From Gloeomargaritales cyanobacterium VI4D9 (GTDB taxonomy: Bacteria; Cyanobacteriota; Cyanobacteriia; Gloeomargaritales; Gloeomargaritaceae): DNA of 64,000 bases. Numbering within the stretch: position 1 is the stretch's first letter; each line of letters begins with the position of its first letter. The translations under genes and the position numbers were made by a program. The stretch is from positions 657,157-721,156 of the forward strand of contig OV696605.1 of NCBI GenBank assembly GCA_927797885.1. The letters are read 5' to 3'. The notes below the pieces were generated by a model that did no database searches, was not told the origin of the DNA, and was given only the letters and a program-made list of their open reading frames with translations. Shown here one piece after another: positions 16,518 through 63,440 of this stretch.

Positions 16518-16630
16518 GAGAGTTTCAAGTAAATAATGATGTTGTATGATGATAAACACCCAAAATCCTTTCAGGGAGAGAGGTTCGCTAGAATTACGTC
16601 CCGTGCCAGCATTAGTAAAGTGAAACTCTC
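16518..16630. repeat. R5 element, simple copy
   Basis: 113 bp with ends GAGAGTTTCAAGTAAATAATGA and TGAAACTCTC, inverted repeats. This copy lacks the R4 insertions found in the R5 copies at 49323 and 59454, so it serves as the empty reference. No clear target duplication remains. Confidence 0.75.
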
Positions 16631-23192: not shown

Positions 23193-24300
23193 CACAAGTG
23201 TTGAATCCTGCAATAAAACTTTACATATTTAGGCGTGGGACGACCCGATTGAGCCAATGGACAAAATTCCACTCCTGCCGTATTAAGATTTGTATATATC
23301 GGAACTTATCTGCCAATTTACTTCCGTACATCCGTGGAACTTTTAACAGTTGCAATATCAAGTAAACTATTAAAATTACATAAATTTGAATGGTAATTCC
23401 ATTCAAATTTTTACTCATCATTTTATCGAGCTTTAAGTTCATCTTTAGAAATTTCCATAGTACCTCTATCGCCCAGCGTTGTCTATAGGCTTCCCCTATC
23501 TCTTCATTACTCATTACATCCTCAGGAATATTGGTAGCTAAATAATAGTCTACTTTCTGTTGAACATTGCCAAAACAAACTACTCTCGCCTTACCTCGTT
23601 CTGTGGTGATATGATAGTTTTCATCCCATTTCCAATTCGACTTAATACGGATAATAAAAAGGGCATCATTTTCGATAAATTGTTCAAATACTTTGTGACT
23701 GCAAAACCCTCTATCCCCGACTGCGACTCCATTTTCCGGTAGCATTTTCACAATATCTTCACCAAAATTAATCTCATGTGCCTGTCCAGGACTAACAATT
23801 AAATGACCAGTAGATTTCGTATCTTGATTCAAAGTGGTTATTAACTTTACTTGGCGATAGCCTTGGAGCCAAAATAACTTACTCATCAGCGGTATTACGG
23901 TAGCATCAAAAGGACATAAAACCAACCTCTTTTCAGGATGAGCTTCCTCAATATAATGCAATAATTTATGATAAAGATGCATAAAAATTTGTGGGTCTCT
24001 TGTCTTGTTCGCCTTAGAAAACGTGGATAAGTCAACCTTAATGCCCGCATGATTTAATTGGTAAAATAAGTCCCGTAAACTGTTGATTCCTTTGTCTAAA
24101 ATGCCAGCAAACCAGATTGAACAAAATAAGCGAGAATTTAGAACTGGATAATCATTAGTTGGCAGGTCTTTGAGTAAAAATTTGACAATCCCGGGAAAAG
24201 AATTGAATTTCATAGTTGTTTCATGTTTTGGTTTATATGAATTAGAATACCATATTTTGACCCCTCTTTTTCTGCCTTTACCTACCTTTCAACACTTCTG
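23193..24300 (-). mobile_element. IS4-type insertion sequence, copy 1
   Basis: 1108 bp with inverted ends CACAAGTGTTGAA and (reverse) CAGAAGTGTTGAA. Its flanking 9-mers do not match each other (cttagaacc on the left, atctaaagc on the right), unlike copies 3 and 4. The left 9-mer is instead the exact reverse complement of the 9-mer left of copy 2, indicating recombination between the two copies. Confidence 0.92.
23221..24213 (-). CDS. IS4-family DDE transposase, copy 1
   Basis: A 330-residue transposase. The DDE triad is visible as the Asp in PFDATVIPL, the Asp in VAVGDRGFCS and the Glu in YRQRWAIEVLWKFLKMNLKLD. That last stretch is the Y-x2-R-x3-E-x6-K signature of the IS4 family. The N-terminus (FPGIVKFLLKDLPTND) is typical of one cyanobacterial IS4 subgroup. 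The protein is identical to those encoded at 46213, 57112 and 62361, so all copies are recent and probably active. The gene is AT-rich compared with the host genes. Confidence 0.95.
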   Translation of the reverse strand: MKFNSFPGIVKFLLKDLPTNDYPVLNSRLFCSIWFAGILDKGINSLRDLFYQLNHAGIKVDLSTFSKANKTRDPQIFMHLYHKLLHYIEEAHPEKRLVLCPFDATVIPLMSKLFWLQGYRQVKLITTLNQDTKSTGHLIVSPGQAHEINFGEDIVKMLPENGVAVGDRGFCSHKVFEQFIENDALFIIRIKSNWKWDENYHITTERGKARVVCFGNVQQKVDYYLATNIPEDVMSNEEIGEAYRQRWAIEVLWKFLKMNLKLDKMMSKNLNGITIQIYVILIVYLILQLLKVPRMYGSKLADKFRYIQILIRQEWNFVHWLNRVVPRLNM

Positions 24301-24412
24301 ATCTAAAGCAATCTATAAAACCCAGTCATCTTAGTACAAAAAAGTACTGAGCAATGCTCTGCCGTTCTTGTGTTTCGTTCTCATGCTTTGAATACATAGA
24401 GGTGCCCTATTT
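24301..24412. repeat. R8 foldback arm, left copy
   Basis: About 110 bases (atctaaagcaatctataaaa ... tagaggtgcccta) nearly identical to 48198-48307. It starts exactly at the end of IS4 copy 1. If the 24301-46125 segment is turned back, the two arms face each other as inverted repeats around the IS4/IS5 pair. The rest of the spacer to 24513 holds no gene. Confidence 0.7.
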
Positions 24413-25259: not shown

Positions 25260-25282
25260 GAGAGTCTCAAGTAAATAATGAT
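25260..25282. repeat. R5 left end
   Basis: AGAGTCTCAAGTAAATAATGAT matches the left arm of R5. It is joined to an R4 element at the same internal site as in the 49323 copy. The right arm of R5 is missing here. Confidence 0.6.
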
Positions 25283-25404
25283 AGGCACCTCCATTACTTC
25301 ATGACTATTGAGAATGATGCCCCCATTATTGATAATTGCCAACAAGAGAATGGGGCTTCTAAGCCTGCCGTGTACGTACAAAAATCAATAAATAGAGGTT
25401 CCCT
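25283..25404. repeat. R4 element
   Basis: About 122 bp, from GGCACCTCCATTACTTCATG to AAATAGAGGTTCCCT, same family as 49334-49454. Together with R5 and R1 it fills the spacer 25243-25700, where I see no gene. Confidence 0.7.
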
Positions 25405-46059: not shown

Positions 46060-46116
46060 TATAGCAATCCAAAATGAGTTTAGAACAGGGGTTGCAGGGG
46101 CACCGCCCCCATATTT
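46060..46116. repeat. R1 element, right half in reverse
   Basis: TATAGCAATCC to CCATATTT, ending at the 9-mer GGTTCTAAG that touches IS4 copy 2. Reverse-complemented, it continues the half element at 23149-23192 without gap or overlap. Confidence 0.85.
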
Positions 46117-46125
46117 GGTTCTAAG

Positions 46126-47233
46126 CAGAAGTGTTGAAAGGTAGGTAAAGGCAGAAAAAGAGGGGTCAAAATATGGTATTCTAATTCATATAAACCAAAA
46201 CATGAAACAACTATGAAATTCAATTCTTTTCCCGGGATTGTCAAATTTTTACTCAAAGACCTGCCAACTAATGATTATCCAGTTCTAAATTCTCGCTTAT
46301 TTTGTTCAATCTGGTTTGCTGGCATTTTAGACAAAGGAATCAACAGTTTACGGGACTTATTTTACCAATTAAATCATGCGGGCATTAAGGTTGACTTATC
46401 CACGTTTTCTAAGGCGAACAAGACAAGAGACCCACAAATTTTTATGCATCTTTATCATAAATTATTGCATTATATTGAGGAAGCTCATCCTGAAAAGAGG
46501 TTGGTTTTATGTCCTTTTGATGCTACCGTAATACCGCTGATGAGTAAGTTATTTTGGCTCCAAGGCTATCGCCAAGTAAAGTTAATAACCACTTTGAATC
46601 AAGATACGAAATCTACTGGTCATTTAATTGTTAGTCCTGGACAGGCACATGAGATTAATTTTGGTGAAGATATTGTGAAAATGCTACCGGAAAATGGAGT
46701 CGCAGTCGGGGATAGAGGGTTTTGCAGTCACAAAGTATTTGAACAATTTATCGAAAATGATGCCCTTTTTATTATCCGTATTAAGTCGAATTGGAAATGG
46801 GATGAAAACTATCATATCACCACAGAACGAGGTAAGGCGAGAGTAGTTTGTTTTGGCAATGTTCAACAGAAAGTAGACTATTATTTAGCTACCAATATTC
46901 CTGAGGATGTAATGAGTAATGAAGAGATAGGGGAAGCCTATAGACAACGCTGGGCGATAGAGGTACTATGGAAATTTCTAAAGATGAACTTAAAGCTCGA
47001 TAAAATGATGAGTAAAAATTTGAATGGAATTACCATTCAAATTTATGTAATTTTAATAGTTTACTTGATATTGCAACTGTTAAAAGTTCCACGGATGTAC
47101 GGAAGTAAATTGGCAGATAAGTTCCGATATATACAAATCTTAATACGGCAGGAGTGGAATTTTGTCCATTGGCTCAATCGGGTCGTCCCACGCCTAAATA
47201 TGTAAAGTTTTATTGCAGGATTCAACACTTGTG
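46126..47233 (+). mobile_element. IS4-type insertion sequence, copy 2
   Basis: 1108 bp, the same element as copies 1, 3 and 4 but in the opposite orientation. Flanking 9-mers are ggttctaag on the left and ttccgaccc on the right, which do not match. On the right it is fused to a truncated IS5-type transposase gene whose first codons come from the IS4 end. Confidence 0.92.
46213..47205 (+). CDS. IS4-family DDE transposase, copy 2
   Basis: 330 residues, identical in sequence to copy 1 (see 23221). Intact, with its own ATG. Confidence 0.95.
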   Translation: MKFNSFPGIVKFLLKDLPTNDYPVLNSRLFCSIWFAGILDKGINSLRDLFYQLNHAGIKVDLSTFSKANKTRDPQIFMHLYHKLLHYIEEAHPEKRLVLCPFDATVIPLMSKLFWLQGYRQVKLITTLNQDTKSTGHLIVSPGQAHEINFGEDIVKMLPENGVAVGDRGFCSHKVFEQFIENDALFIIRIKSNWKWDENYHITTERGKARVVCFGNVQQKVDYYLATNIPEDVMSNEEIGEAYRQRWAIEVLWKFLKMNLKLDKMMSKNLNGITIQIYVILIVYLILQLLKVPRMYGSKLADKFRYIQILIRQEWNFVHWLNRVVPRLNM

Positions 47234-48307: not shown

Positions 48308-49190
48308 TAGAATTTGCCACCAAAGTTGTCCCCACAAATAACCATTGACCAAGCAAACTTCACCACCACCTGGCTTCGGGGTACAAAATTCTTGTACAGT
48401 AGGTGGAATGTCTACGACTGTAAGCTGAAAGTTGCCGGGCTGAATGCTTTTTTGGGTCATAGGTAAGGCTTTCATCCACTGAGTCCGCTCCGTAGCGATA
48501 GGGCTGTCCTTGAGACCACAGGGGCTAGCGGGAACCTCAATCCACTGATGAGCTTCACCCTGAGGAAGGTTAAGAGGAGCGTCTGTCAACCAGATTACTG
48601 ACTGGGCTTTAATGGGGGATTGGGCTTGTAATCGGTTTTGATTCTGTTGCGCAAGATACCGATAGACGTAGAGTTCAGCACATTGAATATCGGTTCCCAG
48701 AAGTGTTGAATCTTAAGATTTTGAGGGTTTGTGCCAAAATGTGCATCTAACCTGATGATACAAAACATTGTCATTTAGGGGCTAGATTCTCATTTATAAC
48801 AAAAAATTTTCTCATTAAGTGTTTTGCCTGGCTCGAATTTATGAACTTTTGTTGCAGGGTTCAACACTACTGATCGGTTCCCTGTTCTGACCCAGGGTTT
48901 TGGGGAATGGCTTGCAGGATTTGAGGGATGTCATTTACCCCTTTGTAATCGAAAGAAACTGGCTTTTGTGTTGTAGTCGCAAAAGAGATAATATGTAATG
49001 TGTCGCCCTTAACAAGACTTTTCTCAACAATCTGTCTCAGGTGTAAGCGTCCTGGATCGCTCAGTCCAACACTTTCCGTTAAGTCAATAGCTAAAACTAC
49101 GTCTCGTCCACCCCAACGTGCAATCCAGTTTAGAGCAGCGTTTTGTAGGGGGGAAAGGGAACGGTTCCCGGGGACAGTTAGGGTAGTCAT
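48278..49190 (-). pseudogene. VWA-domain protein gene split by a mini-IS4 element
   Basis: The N-terminal part (49190 down to 48873) encodes a von Willebrand A fold with the MIDAS-like DVVLAIDLTESVG and GDTLHIISFATTT. It is interrupted at 48698-48872 by R7. Removing R7 and one copy of its 9-bp duplication rejoins the frame exactly: ...EQGT-DIQCAELYVYRYLAQQ...VIWLTDAPLNL, continuing to the stop at 48278. The 3' end is also cut by a repeat arm near 48307, so the natural C-terminus is missing. Cyanobacterial relatives are larger surface or membrane proteins. Two separate short frames are what remains readable. Confidence 0.8.
48698..48872. mobile_element. R7: 175-bp mini-element derived from the IS4 type
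   Basis: Ends CAGAAGTGTTGAA and (reverse) CAGTAGTGTTGAA, the same terminal repeat as the 1108-bp IS4 element. It is bordered by a 9-bp duplication ATCGGTTCC at 48689-48697 and 48873-48881, the same duplication length as IS4 copies 3 and 4. It has no coding capacity, so it was presumably moved by the IS4 transposase. Confidence 0.88.
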
Positions 49191-49333
49191 TCAATGCGTG
49201 TGAGTATCAAGTCCGACTGCCTGCAATTGTAGACACTAATTCTGATGGGTGTAAAGAGTAATTGTTAAGGTAAGGGTAACATCACTCCGTTTGCTACCAT
49301 AGCAGTTCTAAATGAATTTATGGAGAGTCTCAA

Positions 49334-49454
49334 GGGCACCTCTATTAATTCATGGCTATTGAGAATGACCCCTGCATTATTGATAATTGCCAACGAGAGA
49401 ATGGGGCTTCCAGACTCTCTGTGTCAGTACAAAAAACAATAAATAGAGGTTCCC
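49334..49454. repeat. R4 element in R5, first
   Basis: GGGCACCTCTATTAATTCAT to AATAGAGGTTCCC, bounded by a TCAA(G) duplication of R5 sequence. Confidence 0.78.
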
Positions 49455-49470
49455 TCAAGTAAATAATGAT

Positions 49471-49691
49471 GGGCACCTCCATTAGTTCATGACTATTGAG
49501 AATATAGCTAAGCATACAAAGGTTGACATGATATGGGTCGCTGGGCGTAGCCCCGCATTGGTTTCCCAGAATCTTAAGGCGACAACCTAACCGTACTTAG
49601 CTATAACACCCCCATTATTGATAATTACCAACGAGAGAATAGGGCTTCCAAGCCTGCCGTGTAAGTACAAAAATCAATCGGTGGGAGTGCC
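49471..49691. repeat. R4 element in R5, second, holding R3
   Basis: GGGCACCTCCATTAGTTCAT to GGTGGGAGTGCC, bounded by TGAT on both sides. It is split by R3 at 49503-49605. Confidence 0.78.
49503..49605. repeat. R3 element, innermost
   Basis: 103 bp, TATAGCTAAGCATAC to GTACTTAGCTATA, the same family as 32510-32614. It interrupts the R4 sequence GAGAAT/CACCCCCATTATTG at a TA. Confidence 0.8.
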
Positions 49692-49877
49692 TGATATTGT
49701 ACTGCGATAAACGCTCAAAATCCTGCGACAGCGAGAGGTTTGCTAAAATTATGTCCCATGCCATCATTAGTAAATTGAAACTCTCAATTTATGAATTTAG
49801 AATATCGGTCGCAGGGACACTGCCCCTGTCCTTGGTTCTGGAAAATTTTTGTTTGTAAATCAAGTAGGATTGCTATA

Positions 49878-49994
49878 TACAGTCTATTTATCAATTAAAG
49901 GGTACAAAAAGCCTCGATCATCCTAAAGGCTTACCAACATTGACCTACGGTAAGTGGGGTTCAACTGTATCCCATAACCCCTCAAAAGACTGTA
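49878..49994. repeat. R6 element
   Basis: TACAGTCTATTTATCAATTA to CTCAAAAGACTGTA, uninterrupted. It abuts the right end of R1 at 49877. Together these elements fill 49298-49994; 49191-49297 holds nothing recognisable. Confidence 0.75.
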
Positions 49995-50068
49995 ATCGCA
50001 TGGGAAGTTTGCTGGAAACTGATTTCTGTAAATGCCTGTTGCGTAATCATGGCGGAACGTCTCCAAAA

Positions 50069-50254
50069 TTAGCCACCAAGTGCTGTATCATCCCGGATCA
50101 CGACGGCTTCAAGGCTCAACTGCCGCCCGTGCACCGCTGTAATCGCCCAGCGCAGGGGGGTGCCGTAGGTTTGTAAATGCCCCTGAATTTGGGAAATTAA
50201 TGTGGGCAAATGCCCGTCCCAGTCGAGGGTGGTGGTGATCAAAGCCAGGGTCAT
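50069..50254 (-). CDS. Small protein of unknown function
   Basis: A 61-residue protein from ATG 50254 (MTLALITTTLDWDGHLPTLI). The pattern of a short beta strand, then an amphipathic helix (ISQIQGHLQTYG), then LRWAITAVHGRQLSLEAVVI suggests a small alpha/beta fold that I believe recurs in cyanobacteria but cannot name. The ATG is preceded by a weak ribosome-binding site. It is divergent from the ABC-2 permease gene, with 66 bases between. Confidence 0.5.
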   Translation of the reverse strand: MTLALITTTLDWDGHLPTLISQIQGHLQTYGTPLRWAITAVHGRQLSLEAVVIRDDTALGG

Positions 50255-50320: not shown

Positions 50321-51181
50321 ATGAGTTCTACTGTCACTTCCCCTCCTTGGCAACTCGAGACGACCGCTCATCCCACTGCGGAACTCATCCAGGAAACCTG
50401 GGCTTTGACCCGGCGGTTACTGATTCAACTACAACGCCGTCCGTCAACTTTGGTGGCGGGAATTATTCAGCCCTTGATGTGGTTGATTTTATTCGGAGCT
50501 TTATTTCAAAATGCCCCCAGTGGTTTTTTTAGTGACGGGGTGAATTATGCCCAATTTTTGAGTGCGGGAATTATTGTATTCACCGCATTTTCGGGAGCAT
50601 TGAATGCGGGCTTGCCGGTGATGTTTGACCGGGAATTTGGCTTTTTGAATCGCTTTTTGGTGGCGCCTTTGGTGTCCCGTTTTTCCATCGTTTTAGCCTC
50701 CACGATTTTTATTACCCTCCTGAGTTTGGTGCAGACGGTGGCGGTGATGTTGACTAGCTATCTGCTAGGGGGTGGTCTGCCGGGGGTCGGCGGCTTTTTC
50801 CTGGTGGTGGGGATTGTGATGCTGTTGGTCTTGGGCATGACCGCTTTGAGTTTGGGGCTGACCTTTACCCTGCCGGGGCACGTGGAATTGCTGGCGGTGA
50901 TTTTTGTGGTGAATCTGCCCCTTTTGTTTGCCAGTACGGCGTTGGCTCCCCTGGCGTTTATGCCGAAGTGGTTGCAGGCGATTGCCAGTATCAATCCCCT
51001 CAGCTACGCCATCGAGCCGATTCGTTACCTCTATTTGCACCCGGATTGGCAGTGGTCGGGGACGGTGATGGCGACCCCCTGGGGGAATTTGTCCCTGGGC
51101 GGCTGTTTGCTGATTTTGACCCTGTTTGACGGGTTGATTATCCTGAGCGTTCGCAAATCATTGCACCGGAAATTGAGTTAG
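50321..51181 (+). CDS. ABC-2 type transporter permease
   Basis: A 286-residue membrane protein with six predicted helices. An N-terminal amphipathic stretch (LIQETWALTRRLLIQLQRRP) is followed by IIQPLMWLILFGALFQ and the conserved MFDREFGFLNRFLVAPLVSR loop. NPLSYAIEPIRYLYL near the C-terminus is the ABC-2 signature. Such permeases pair with a separate DrrA-like ATPase, usually encoded just upstream. None is present here, so the partner is elsewhere. Export of a lipid, drug or glycan is likely. Confidence 0.92.
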   Translation: MSSTVTSPPWQLETTAHPTAELIQETWALTRRLLIQLQRRPSTLVAGIIQPLMWLILFGALFQNAPSGFFSDGVNYAQFLSAGIIVFTAFSGALNAGLPVMFDREFGFLNRFLVAPLVSRFSIVLASTIFITLLSLVQTVAVMLTSYLLGGGLPGVGGFFLVVGIVMLLVLGMTALSLGLTFTLPGHVELLAVIFVVNLPLLFASTALAPLAFMPKWLQAIASINPLSYAIEPIRYLYLHPDWQWSGTVMATPWGNLSLGGCLLILTLFDGLIILSVRKSLHRKLS

Positions 51182-57083: not shown

Positions 57084-58191
57084 CACAAGTGTTGAATCCT
57101 GCAATAAAACTTTACATATTTAGGCGTGGGACGACCCGATTGAGCCAATGGACAAAATTCCACTCCTGCCGTATTAAGATTTGTATATATCGGAACTTAT
57201 CTGCCAATTTACTTCCGTACATCCGTGGAACTTTTAACAGTTGCAATATCAAGTAAACTATTAAAATTACATAAATTTGAATGGTAATTCCATTCAAATT
57301 TTTACTCATCATTTTATCGAGCTTTAAGTTCATCTTTAGAAATTTCCATAGTACCTCTATCGCCCAGCGTTGTCTATAGGCTTCCCCTATCTCTTCATTA
57401 CTCATTACATCCTCAGGAATATTGGTAGCTAAATAATAGTCTACTTTCTGTTGAACATTGCCAAAACAAACTACTCTCGCCTTACCTCGTTCTGTGGTGA
57501 TATGATAGTTTTCATCCCATTTCCAATTCGACTTAATACGGATAATAAAAAGGGCATCATTTTCGATAAATTGTTCAAATACTTTGTGACTGCAAAACCC
57601 TCTATCCCCGACTGCGACTCCATTTTCCGGTAGCATTTTCACAATATCTTCACCAAAATTAATCTCATGTGCCTGTCCAGGACTAACAATTAAATGACCA
57701 GTAGATTTCGTATCTTGATTCAAAGTGGTTATTAACTTTACTTGGCGATAGCCTTGGAGCCAAAATAACTTACTCATCAGCGGTATTACGGTAGCATCAA
57801 AAGGACATAAAACCAACCTCTTTTCAGGATGAGCTTCCTCAATATAATGCAATAATTTATGATAAAGATGCATAAAAATTTGTGGGTCTCTTGTCTTGTT
57901 CGCCTTAGAAAACGTGGATAAGTCAACCTTAATGCCCGCATGATTTAATTGGTAAAATAAGTCCCGTAAACTGTTGATTCCTTTGTCTAAAATGCCAGCA
58001 AACCAGATTGAACAAAATAAGCGAGAATTTAGAACTGGATAATCATTAGTTGGCAGGTCTTTGAGTAAAAATTTGACAATCCCGGGAAAAGAATTGAATT
58101 TCATAGTTGTTTCATGTTTTGGTTTATATGAATTAGAATACCATATTTTGACCCCTCTTTTTCTGCCTTTACCTACCTTTCAACACTTCTG
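57084..58191 (-). mobile_element. IS4-type insertion sequence, copy 3
   Basis: 1108 bp with matching 9-bp target duplication ACCCTACCG at 57075-57083 and 58192-58200. It serves as a reference for an undisturbed insertion. Confidence 0.95.
57112..58104 (-). CDS. IS4-family DDE transposase, copy 3
   Basis: 330 residues, identical to copy 1 (see 23221). Confidence 0.95.
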   Translation of the reverse strand: MKFNSFPGIVKFLLKDLPTNDYPVLNSRLFCSIWFAGILDKGINSLRDLFYQLNHAGIKVDLSTFSKANKTRDPQIFMHLYHKLLHYIEEAHPEKRLVLCPFDATVIPLMSKLFWLQGYRQVKLITTLNQDTKSTGHLIVSPGQAHEINFGEDIVKMLPENGVAVGDRGFCSHKVFEQFIENDALFIIRIKSNWKWDENYHITTERGKARVVCFGNVQQKVDYYLATNIPEDVMSNEEIGEAYRQRWAIEVLWKFLKMNLKLDKMMSKNLNGITIQIYVILIVYLILQLLKVPRMYGSKLADKFRYIQILIRQEWNFVHWLNRVVPRLNM

Positions 58192-58398
58192 ACCCTACCG
58201 ATATTTGGGGGCATCCAATAAGGGAGCGTTGCCCTTGGGACTGCTGTTCAAAATTCCCCAAAATTTCCTGGGAATGACTGTACTAGACTTCAGGTTAAAA
58301 TACTTTGATTAGTTGGCATATATGAAACAACGTTTGTGAGGGTTTGCCCAATGACCTATGCAATGATCAGAGGAATTGCGCCATCAGCGGAATAGCCC

Positions 58399-59453: not shown

Positions 59454-59685
59454 GAGAGTTTCAATTTACTCATGATGGCATGGGACATGATTTTAACAAA
59501 CCCCCCTCTGTGAAAGGGTTTTGAGCGTTTATCGCAGTACAACATCAGGCACTCCCACCTGTTAATTTTTGTACTTACACGGCAGGCTTGGAAGCCCCAT
59601 TCTCTCCTGGCGATTATCAATAGTGCGGGTGCTATTCTCAATAGCTCTGAATAGGGGTGCCCATCATTATTTACTTGAGACCCTC
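59454..59685. repeat. R5 element carrying R4
   Basis: GAGAGTTTCAATTTACTCAT to CTTGAGACCCTC, in reverse relative to 49323. R4 is inserted at 59548-59662 at the same R5 site as the second R4 of the 49-kb cluster. Flanks are AATAAAAC and AATAAAAG, a probable 8-bp duplication. The spacer 59101-59823 contains nothing beyond these elements. Confidence 0.75.
59548..59662. repeat. R4 element in R5
   Basis: GGCACTCCCACCTGTTAATT to GAATAGGGGTGCCC. Interior GAAGCCCCATTCTCTC as in the other R4 copies. Confidence 0.75.
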
Positions 59686-62332: not shown

Positions 62333-63440
62333 CACAAGTGTTGAATCCTGCAATAAAACTTTACATATTTAGGCGTGGGACGACCCGATTGAGCCAATGG
62401 ACAAAATTCCACTCCTGCCGTATTAAGATTTGTATATATCGGAACTTATCTGCCAATTTACTTCCGTACATCCGTGGAACTTTTAACAGTTGCAATATCA
62501 AGTAAACTATTAAAATTACATAAATTTGAATGGTAATTCCATTCAAATTTTTACTCATCATTTTATCGAGCTTTAAGTTCATCTTTAGAAATTTCCATAG
62601 TACCTCTATCGCCCAGCGTTGTCTATAGGCTTCCCCTATCTCTTCATTACTCATTACATCCTCAGGAATATTGGTAGCTAAATAATAGTCTACTTTCTGT
62701 TGAACATTGCCAAAACAAACTACTCTCGCCTTACCTCGTTCTGTGGTGATATGATAGTTTTCATCCCATTTCCAATTCGACTTAATACGGATAATAAAAA
62801 GGGCATCATTTTCGATAAATTGTTCAAATACTTTGTGACTGCAAAACCCTCTATCCCCGACTGCGACTCCATTTTCCGGTAGCATTTTCACAATATCTTC
62901 ACCAAAATTAATCTCATGTGCCTGTCCAGGACTAACAATTAAATGACCAGTAGATTTCGTATCTTGATTCAAAGTGGTTATTAACTTTACTTGGCGATAG
63001 CCTTGGAGCCAAAATAACTTACTCATCAGCGGTATTACGGTAGCATCAAAAGGACATAAAACCAACCTCTTTTCAGGATGAGCTTCCTCAATATAATGCA
63101 ATAATTTATGATAAAGATGCATAAAAATTTGTGGGTCTCTTGTCTTGTTCGCCTTAGAAAACGTGGATAAGTCAACCTTAATGCCCGCATGATTTAATTG
63201 GTAAAATAAGTCCCGTAAACTGTTGATTCCTTTGTCTAAAATGCCAGCAAACCAGATTGAACAAAATAAGCGAGAATTTAGAACTGGATAATCATTAGTT
63301 GGCAGGTCTTTGAGTAAAAATTTGACAATCCCGGGAAAAGAATTGAATTTCATAGTTGTTTCATGTTTTGGTTTATATGAATTAGAATACCATATTTTGA
63401 CCCCTCTTTTTCTGCCTTTACCTACCTTTCAACACTTCTG
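62333..63440 (-). mobile_element. IS4-type insertion sequence, copy 4
   Basis: 1108 bp with matching 9-bp duplication TGCTGGACT at 62324-62332 and 63441-63449. The insertion point is at the edge of an R1 element. Confidence 0.95.
62361..63353 (-). CDS. IS4-family DDE transposase, copy 4
   Basis: 330 residues, identical to copy 1 (see 23221). Confidence 0.95.
   Translation of the reverse strand: MKFNSFPGIVKFLLKDLPTNDYPVLNSRLFCSIWFAGILDKGINSLRDLFYQLNHAGIKVDLSTFSKANKTRDPQIFMHLYHKLLHYIEEAHPEKRLVLCPFDATVIPLMSKLFWLQGYRQVKLITTLNQDTKSTGHLIVSPGQAHEINFGEDIVKMLPENGVAVGDRGFCSHKVFEQFIENDALFIIRIKSNWKWDENYHITTERGKARVVCFGNVQQKVDYYLATNIPEDVMSNEEIGEAYRQRWAIEVLWKFLKMNLKLDKMMSKNLNGITIQIYVILIVYLILQLLKVPRMYGSKLADKFRYIQILIRQEWNFVHWLNRVVPRLNM

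Follow-up and report, generated by a model that had tools for sequence, protein, structure and literature searches.

A stack of short repeats that interrupt one another lies in a 64,000-nucleotide window (bases 657157-721156) of the single-contig, 3.16-Mb genome G000, whose relatives are cyanobacteria. The stack is located upstream of a broken minus-strand gene (48867-49190), and an ABC-2 type transporter gene (50321-51181) is found on its other side. It is made up of elements of the repeat families R1, R3, R4, R5 and R6 (Table 1), which were compared with copies elsewhere in G000 and in G003, a genome of the same genus. The analysis was based on searches and on fetched stretches of the two genomes (L-numbers), and copies of R3, R6 and related ends were delimited by BLAST.

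Table 1. Elements and target duplications of the repeat stack and its neighbour, in window positions.
Feature	Position	Strand	Description
R1 element (outermost)	49298..49877	+	Halves 49298-49322 and 49786-49877, with the composite between them; ends of TATAGC type, the left one now CATAGC through decay; ortholog in one piece at G003 L061:18536-18644
Target duplication AATTTATG, left copy, 8 bp	49315..49322	.	Single copy in G003
Target duplication AATTTATG, right copy	49786..49793	.	Read in the window sequence
R5 unit (composite: R5 with an old R4 inside)	49323..49785	+	Interrupted by the first R4 and R3; ends GAGAGTCTCAA and TTGAAACTCTC; peeled length 237 bp
First R4 (R4a), in left R5 arm	49334..49454	+	TCAA at 49330-49333 and 49455-49458; identical over 121 bp to L029, L030 and L031
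Second R4 (R4b), the old R4 of the composite	49471..49691	+	Holds R3; TGAT at 49467-49470 and 49692-49695; same insertion base in all composites
R3 element, in R4b	49503..49605	+	Flanked by TA on each side; short form of an IS630 element
R6 element	49878..49994	+	TACAGTCT...AGACTGTA; directly against R1 right end TATA
Neighbouring 175-bp element	48698..48872	+	CAGAAGTGTTGAA...TTCAACACTACTG; 9-bp duplication ATCGGTTCC; absent from G003; outside the stack, same process next door

An earlier note on this DNA had described a nested stack with exact joins, in which R1 is interrupted by R5 with an 8-bp duplication, R5 by two R4 copies with TCAA and TGAT duplications, and the second R4 by R3 at a TA, with an R6 copy abutting the whole. 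All of this was found in the sequence, with R6 flush against the right end of R1. For peeling, R4a, R3 and the composite were each cut out together with a single copy of the target duplication (TCAA, TA and AATTTATG, respectively). The peeled R1 (109 bp) aligned without gaps to the orthologous R1 of G003 over 109/109 bases (96.3%), and the peeled R5+R4 unit (237 bp) aligned without gaps to L011 over 237/237 bases (94.1%) and nearly end-to-end to L010 (93.7%). R4a was identical over 121/121 bases to L029, L030 and L031, each of which has its own 4-bp duplication. The nearest relatives of the R3 element were two G003 copies (95.1%), followed by L028 and L046 of G000 (93.2%). The layers were thus collinear with single copies, and a lack of collinearity, named beforehand as a ground for rejecting the nesting, was not found. 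Duplications at all joins and gapless peeling show that the stack is not a product of chance, and that it is a real nested insertion formed by an ordinary insertion mechanism.

The families R1, R3, R4, R5 and R6 are ordinary families of miniature inverted-repeat transposable elements (MITEs). Element lengths were 103-237 bp and copies were many: 42 matches for R4 (from 40 of 282 candidates scored), 37 for R3, about 18 for R5 and R5+R4, and many for R6. The terminal inverted repeats are TATAGCAATCC/GGATTGCTATA in R1, TATAGCTAA/TTAGCTATA in R3 (all 18 full-length matches being bounded by TATAGC...GCTATA), GGGCACCTCT/AGAGGTGCCC in R4, GAGAGTYTCA/TGAAACTCTC in R5 and TACAGTCT/AGACTGTA in R6. The length of the target duplication was constant within a family, R1 having been inspected in the window and at a few loci. 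It was 4 bp in eight further R4 copies (TTCA, TTTA, TTAT, TTTA, TATA, TAAA, TTGA and TCAA) and 8 bp in R5 (exact for AATTTATG, TTTATTTG and AAAATTCT, and 7/8 in three more), where it was clear in about half of the copies; R3 and R6 are flanked by TA. No open frame of at least 70 aa lies within 49298-49939, and the stack is reached by a single such frame, 49940-50176, which leads out of R6 into the flank. No Rfam family matched the stack region, and an RNA role for the stack was dropped on that account.

Full-length partners were found for R3 and R6. The ends of R3 match an IS630 element at L097, and R6-type ends are carried by seven near-identical IS630 copies (L099-L104 among the loci; 1029 bp in L099). 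The proteins of these elements have a DDE_3 domain (PF13358, over cut-off), and the ends with their TA were verified at L097, L099, L103 and L104. The TA duplication and the inverted ends are common to R3 and L097 and to R6 and L099-L104; in contrast to IS630 elements, R3 and R6 are internally deleted and have no transposase. No R5 partner was found in searches with end patterns that allowed 3 mismatches at most, and the unpaired R5-type ends that were read (L088-L094) belonged to no transposase-bearing R5; no partner of R1 or R4 was found among the loci examined. Identical R4 copies at four places and differences in presence and absence between G000 and G003 would be indirect signs of mobility in cells. 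The locus is very probably a nest of MITEs that are short, have terminal inverted repeats and no transposase, and were presumably moved in trans.

The intermediate state that the earlier note had proposed to look for in other strains was found in G003, where this R1 is present in one piece at the corresponding locus, with a single AATTTATG. There, the left flank (window 48873-49322, 93.6%) joins the right half of R1 (window 49786-49877, 95.7%) directly, with one AATTTATG in common. R1 was therefore at the locus before the two genomes split, and tandem recombination, the alternative to nesting that had been raised, is excluded for the outer layer. The composite appears either to have entered R1 later, in the G000 lineage, or to have left G003 by clean excision; of the two, an R1 in G003 that was never interrupted is the one we infer. 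As a base-exact case of bacterial MITE nesting whose intermediate state occurs naturally in a sister genome, the locus allows its layers to be dated relative to the species split. The uninterrupted R1 of G003 holds a tandem 8-bp repeat ATGAATTT (L061:18536-18570) that is missing from the other R1 copies seen and might be the footprint of an older insertion or the result of slippage. At its right edge, the next feature in G003 is another R1-like element with its own R3, instead of R6. In G003, 16 kb separate the two flanks of the stack, and their orientation is inverted; a simple inversion was considered as the cause and dropped, as the intervening DNA maps to several distant places in G000. 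Gene order between the two genomes is heavily scrambled, in small blocks.

The most interesting part of the locus is the amplified R5+R4 composite. The commoner form of R5 in G000 is the one that holds R4, always at the same base, and 16 right arms of it were found (L009-L022, the stack and window 59454-59685), four of them (L012, L014, L015 and L017) with the left end of R4 in place of the left R5 arm. The uninterrupted R5 at 16518, cited earlier as the single copy of this layer, does exist, but it is the short form without R4 and the rarer one in G000: only two intact short copies were found there (window 16518 and L023), together with the damaged L024. In G003, at least eight short copies were found, with two composites, a clear one (L140) and a decayed one (L133). 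The composite had no match in the plasmid collection, and the exact R5 left end had none in the genome collection, which may lack the records closest to the window.

A tree of the 121-bp R4 is too short for deciding whether R4 was captured once, and a tree of R5 right arms, built on 18 composites (16 from G000 and 2 from G003) and 10 uninterrupted R5 copies, was therefore used. All 18 composites were separated from the 10 uninterrupted copies by a branch with 100/99 support. The stack composite fell within a group of eight confined to G000 (99/87), and the G003 composites fell within another group. Outside the R5 ends of composites, 8-bp duplications were exact at the stack and at L140 (also read as L063) and matched at 7/8 positions at L013, L016 and window 59454-59685; the composite would therefore move by its R5 ends. 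The shared R4b-in-R5 join, together with the split in the right-arm tree, makes it most likely that R4 was captured by R5 once, before G000 and G003 parted, and that R1 was entered by the composite as a single element. This marks a trap in the reading of such loci: one element may lie within another without having inserted on the spot, since two nested elements can travel together as a unit.

The locus is thus very probably a nest of MITEs in which an old R4-in-R5 composite entered R1 and was then invaded separately by R4a and R3. Before the genomes parted, and elsewhere, an R5 would have received an R4 at TGAT, and the two-in-one element would have multiplied as a unit by its outer R5 ends. 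R1 would have occupied its present locus, also before the split. One copy of the composite would then have jumped into R1 in the G000 lineage, duplicating AATTTATG, after which R4a would have entered the left R5 arm (TCAA) and R3 the internal R4 (TA) in separate events, to which the nesting gives no order. R6 is placed at the right edge of R1 with no time assigned in this sequence. The order R1, R5, R4, R3 given in the earlier note does not hold: R4b sat in R5 before the composite entered R1, as the same join is present in many copies and in G003. The placing of R4 before R3 fell away, as R4a and R3 occupy separate parts of the composite and do not interrupt each other. Likewise, although the stack contains four families, the nesting built here has three levels and not the four described: R1, the composite, and then R4 and R3 side by side. 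Because R4a is identical to three copies elsewhere, it is probably a recent jump, and probably younger than R3.

Several observations weigh against this history. Precise excision in G003 would leave an identical empty R1. The R4 tree did not group all internal R4s; it had no strongly supported branch and placed composites in at least two positions, which leaves some room for an exchange of R4 copies or for a second capture. No clear 8-bp duplication was seen in about half of the R5-type copies. In addition, hybrid copies occur with an R4 left and an R5 right end (L012, L014, L015 and L017) or with an R5 left and an R4 right end (window 25260-25404, L028 and L134). The hybrids probably arose when R4 copies from different places recombined, and they suggest that recombination between copies takes place as well.

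That R4 was captured by R5 at least two times at the same TGAT site, through target preference, is unlikely but has some points in its favor. A second R4 occupies this same TCAA/TTAA position in another composite (L028), and L140 of G003 holds a third R4-type insertion a few bases from there, so the left R5 arm has been hit repeatedly; the absence of a single group in the R4 tree is also in line with repeated capture. On the other hand, the right arms of all composites lie on one side of the 100/99 branch, away from all short R5 copies. A mosaic that owes more to homologous recombination or gene conversion among the repeats than to insertion would fit the hybrids, the mixed R4 tree and the gene order near the locus, scrambled relative to G003, but it is very improbable in view of the gapless peeling and of the exact duplication (TCAA, TGAT, TA or AATTTATG) that marks each of the four joins, and for the outer layer it is already refuted by the empty R1 of the sister genome. 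Four successive local insertions, in the order R1, R5, both R4 and R3, are the least probable of these readings: each join does have the duplication expected of an insertion, but R4a and R3 do not interrupt each other, and the R4b-in-R5 join is common to 18 right arms in two genomes, with arms distinct from those of short R5, which refutes a local insertion of R4b unless the other composites descend from the stack copy, an unlikely course given two G003 copies in a different subgroup.

Composite right arms and short R5 copies stand at 16 to 2 intact in G000 and at 2 to at least 8 in G003. It is conceivable, though doubtful, that the capture of R4 gave R5 an advantage and that the two-in-one MITE displaced its parent in the G000 lineage; R4 might, for example, be a better spacer, or might protect the R5 ends by acting as a hot landing site. 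A composite and its short parent in reversed proportions in two related genomes provide a system for asking what spreads a form of MITE.

Nested small repeats are known from pneumococcus as BOX, RUP and SPRITE (PMC3049150), and RUP resembles the present R3 and R6 in having a partner of IS630 type (PMC3049150). The pneumococcal repeats differ in sequence and host, and in the present case the sister genome shows the uninterrupted state and the nested pair has spread as a unit. Prokaryotic MITEs, including the cyanobacterial Nezha (PMC10969869), are alike in size, inverted repeats, target duplications, high copy number and the absence of a gene of their own, the likeness to Nezha being one of features and not of compared sequences. 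Some of them have a transposase-bearing partner in the genome (PMC10969869), as R3 and R6 do; none was found for R1, R4 and R5. The Russian-doll insertions of element-annotation pipelines (PMC3852290) are likewise elements within elements that are separated layer by layer; in contrast, the internal R4 layer here would be inherited and not a local event.

A sample of 58 insertions (R3, R4, R6 and the composite) contained 25 whose empty site matched another repeat (8 of 13 for R3 alone). The sample was biased by the many loci fetched for their likeness to the stack; nesting thus appears to be common in G000. Other mobile DNA was seen as well. An insertion sequence of ~1.1 kb with ends CAGAAGTGTTGAA and a 330-aa DDE_Tnp_1 transposase is present at window 23193-24311, 46115-47233, 57084-58212 and 62333-63440, and about 60 genome matches have the same transposase score, which suggests a very recent burst. 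One gene copy of this abundant transposase (L042) contains an inserted R3. The 175-bp element with CAGAAGTGTTGAA ends (window 48698-48872, L026, L095 and L096) has exact 9-bp duplications and at least six further copies at 100% identity. In the window it interrupts a gene whose G003 counterpart is an intact 366-aa frame, and it also lies inside broken transposase genes at G000:C1:630498-631233 and 1066448-1067183, as would be expected had an insertion sequence been disrupted first and then copied along with its insert.
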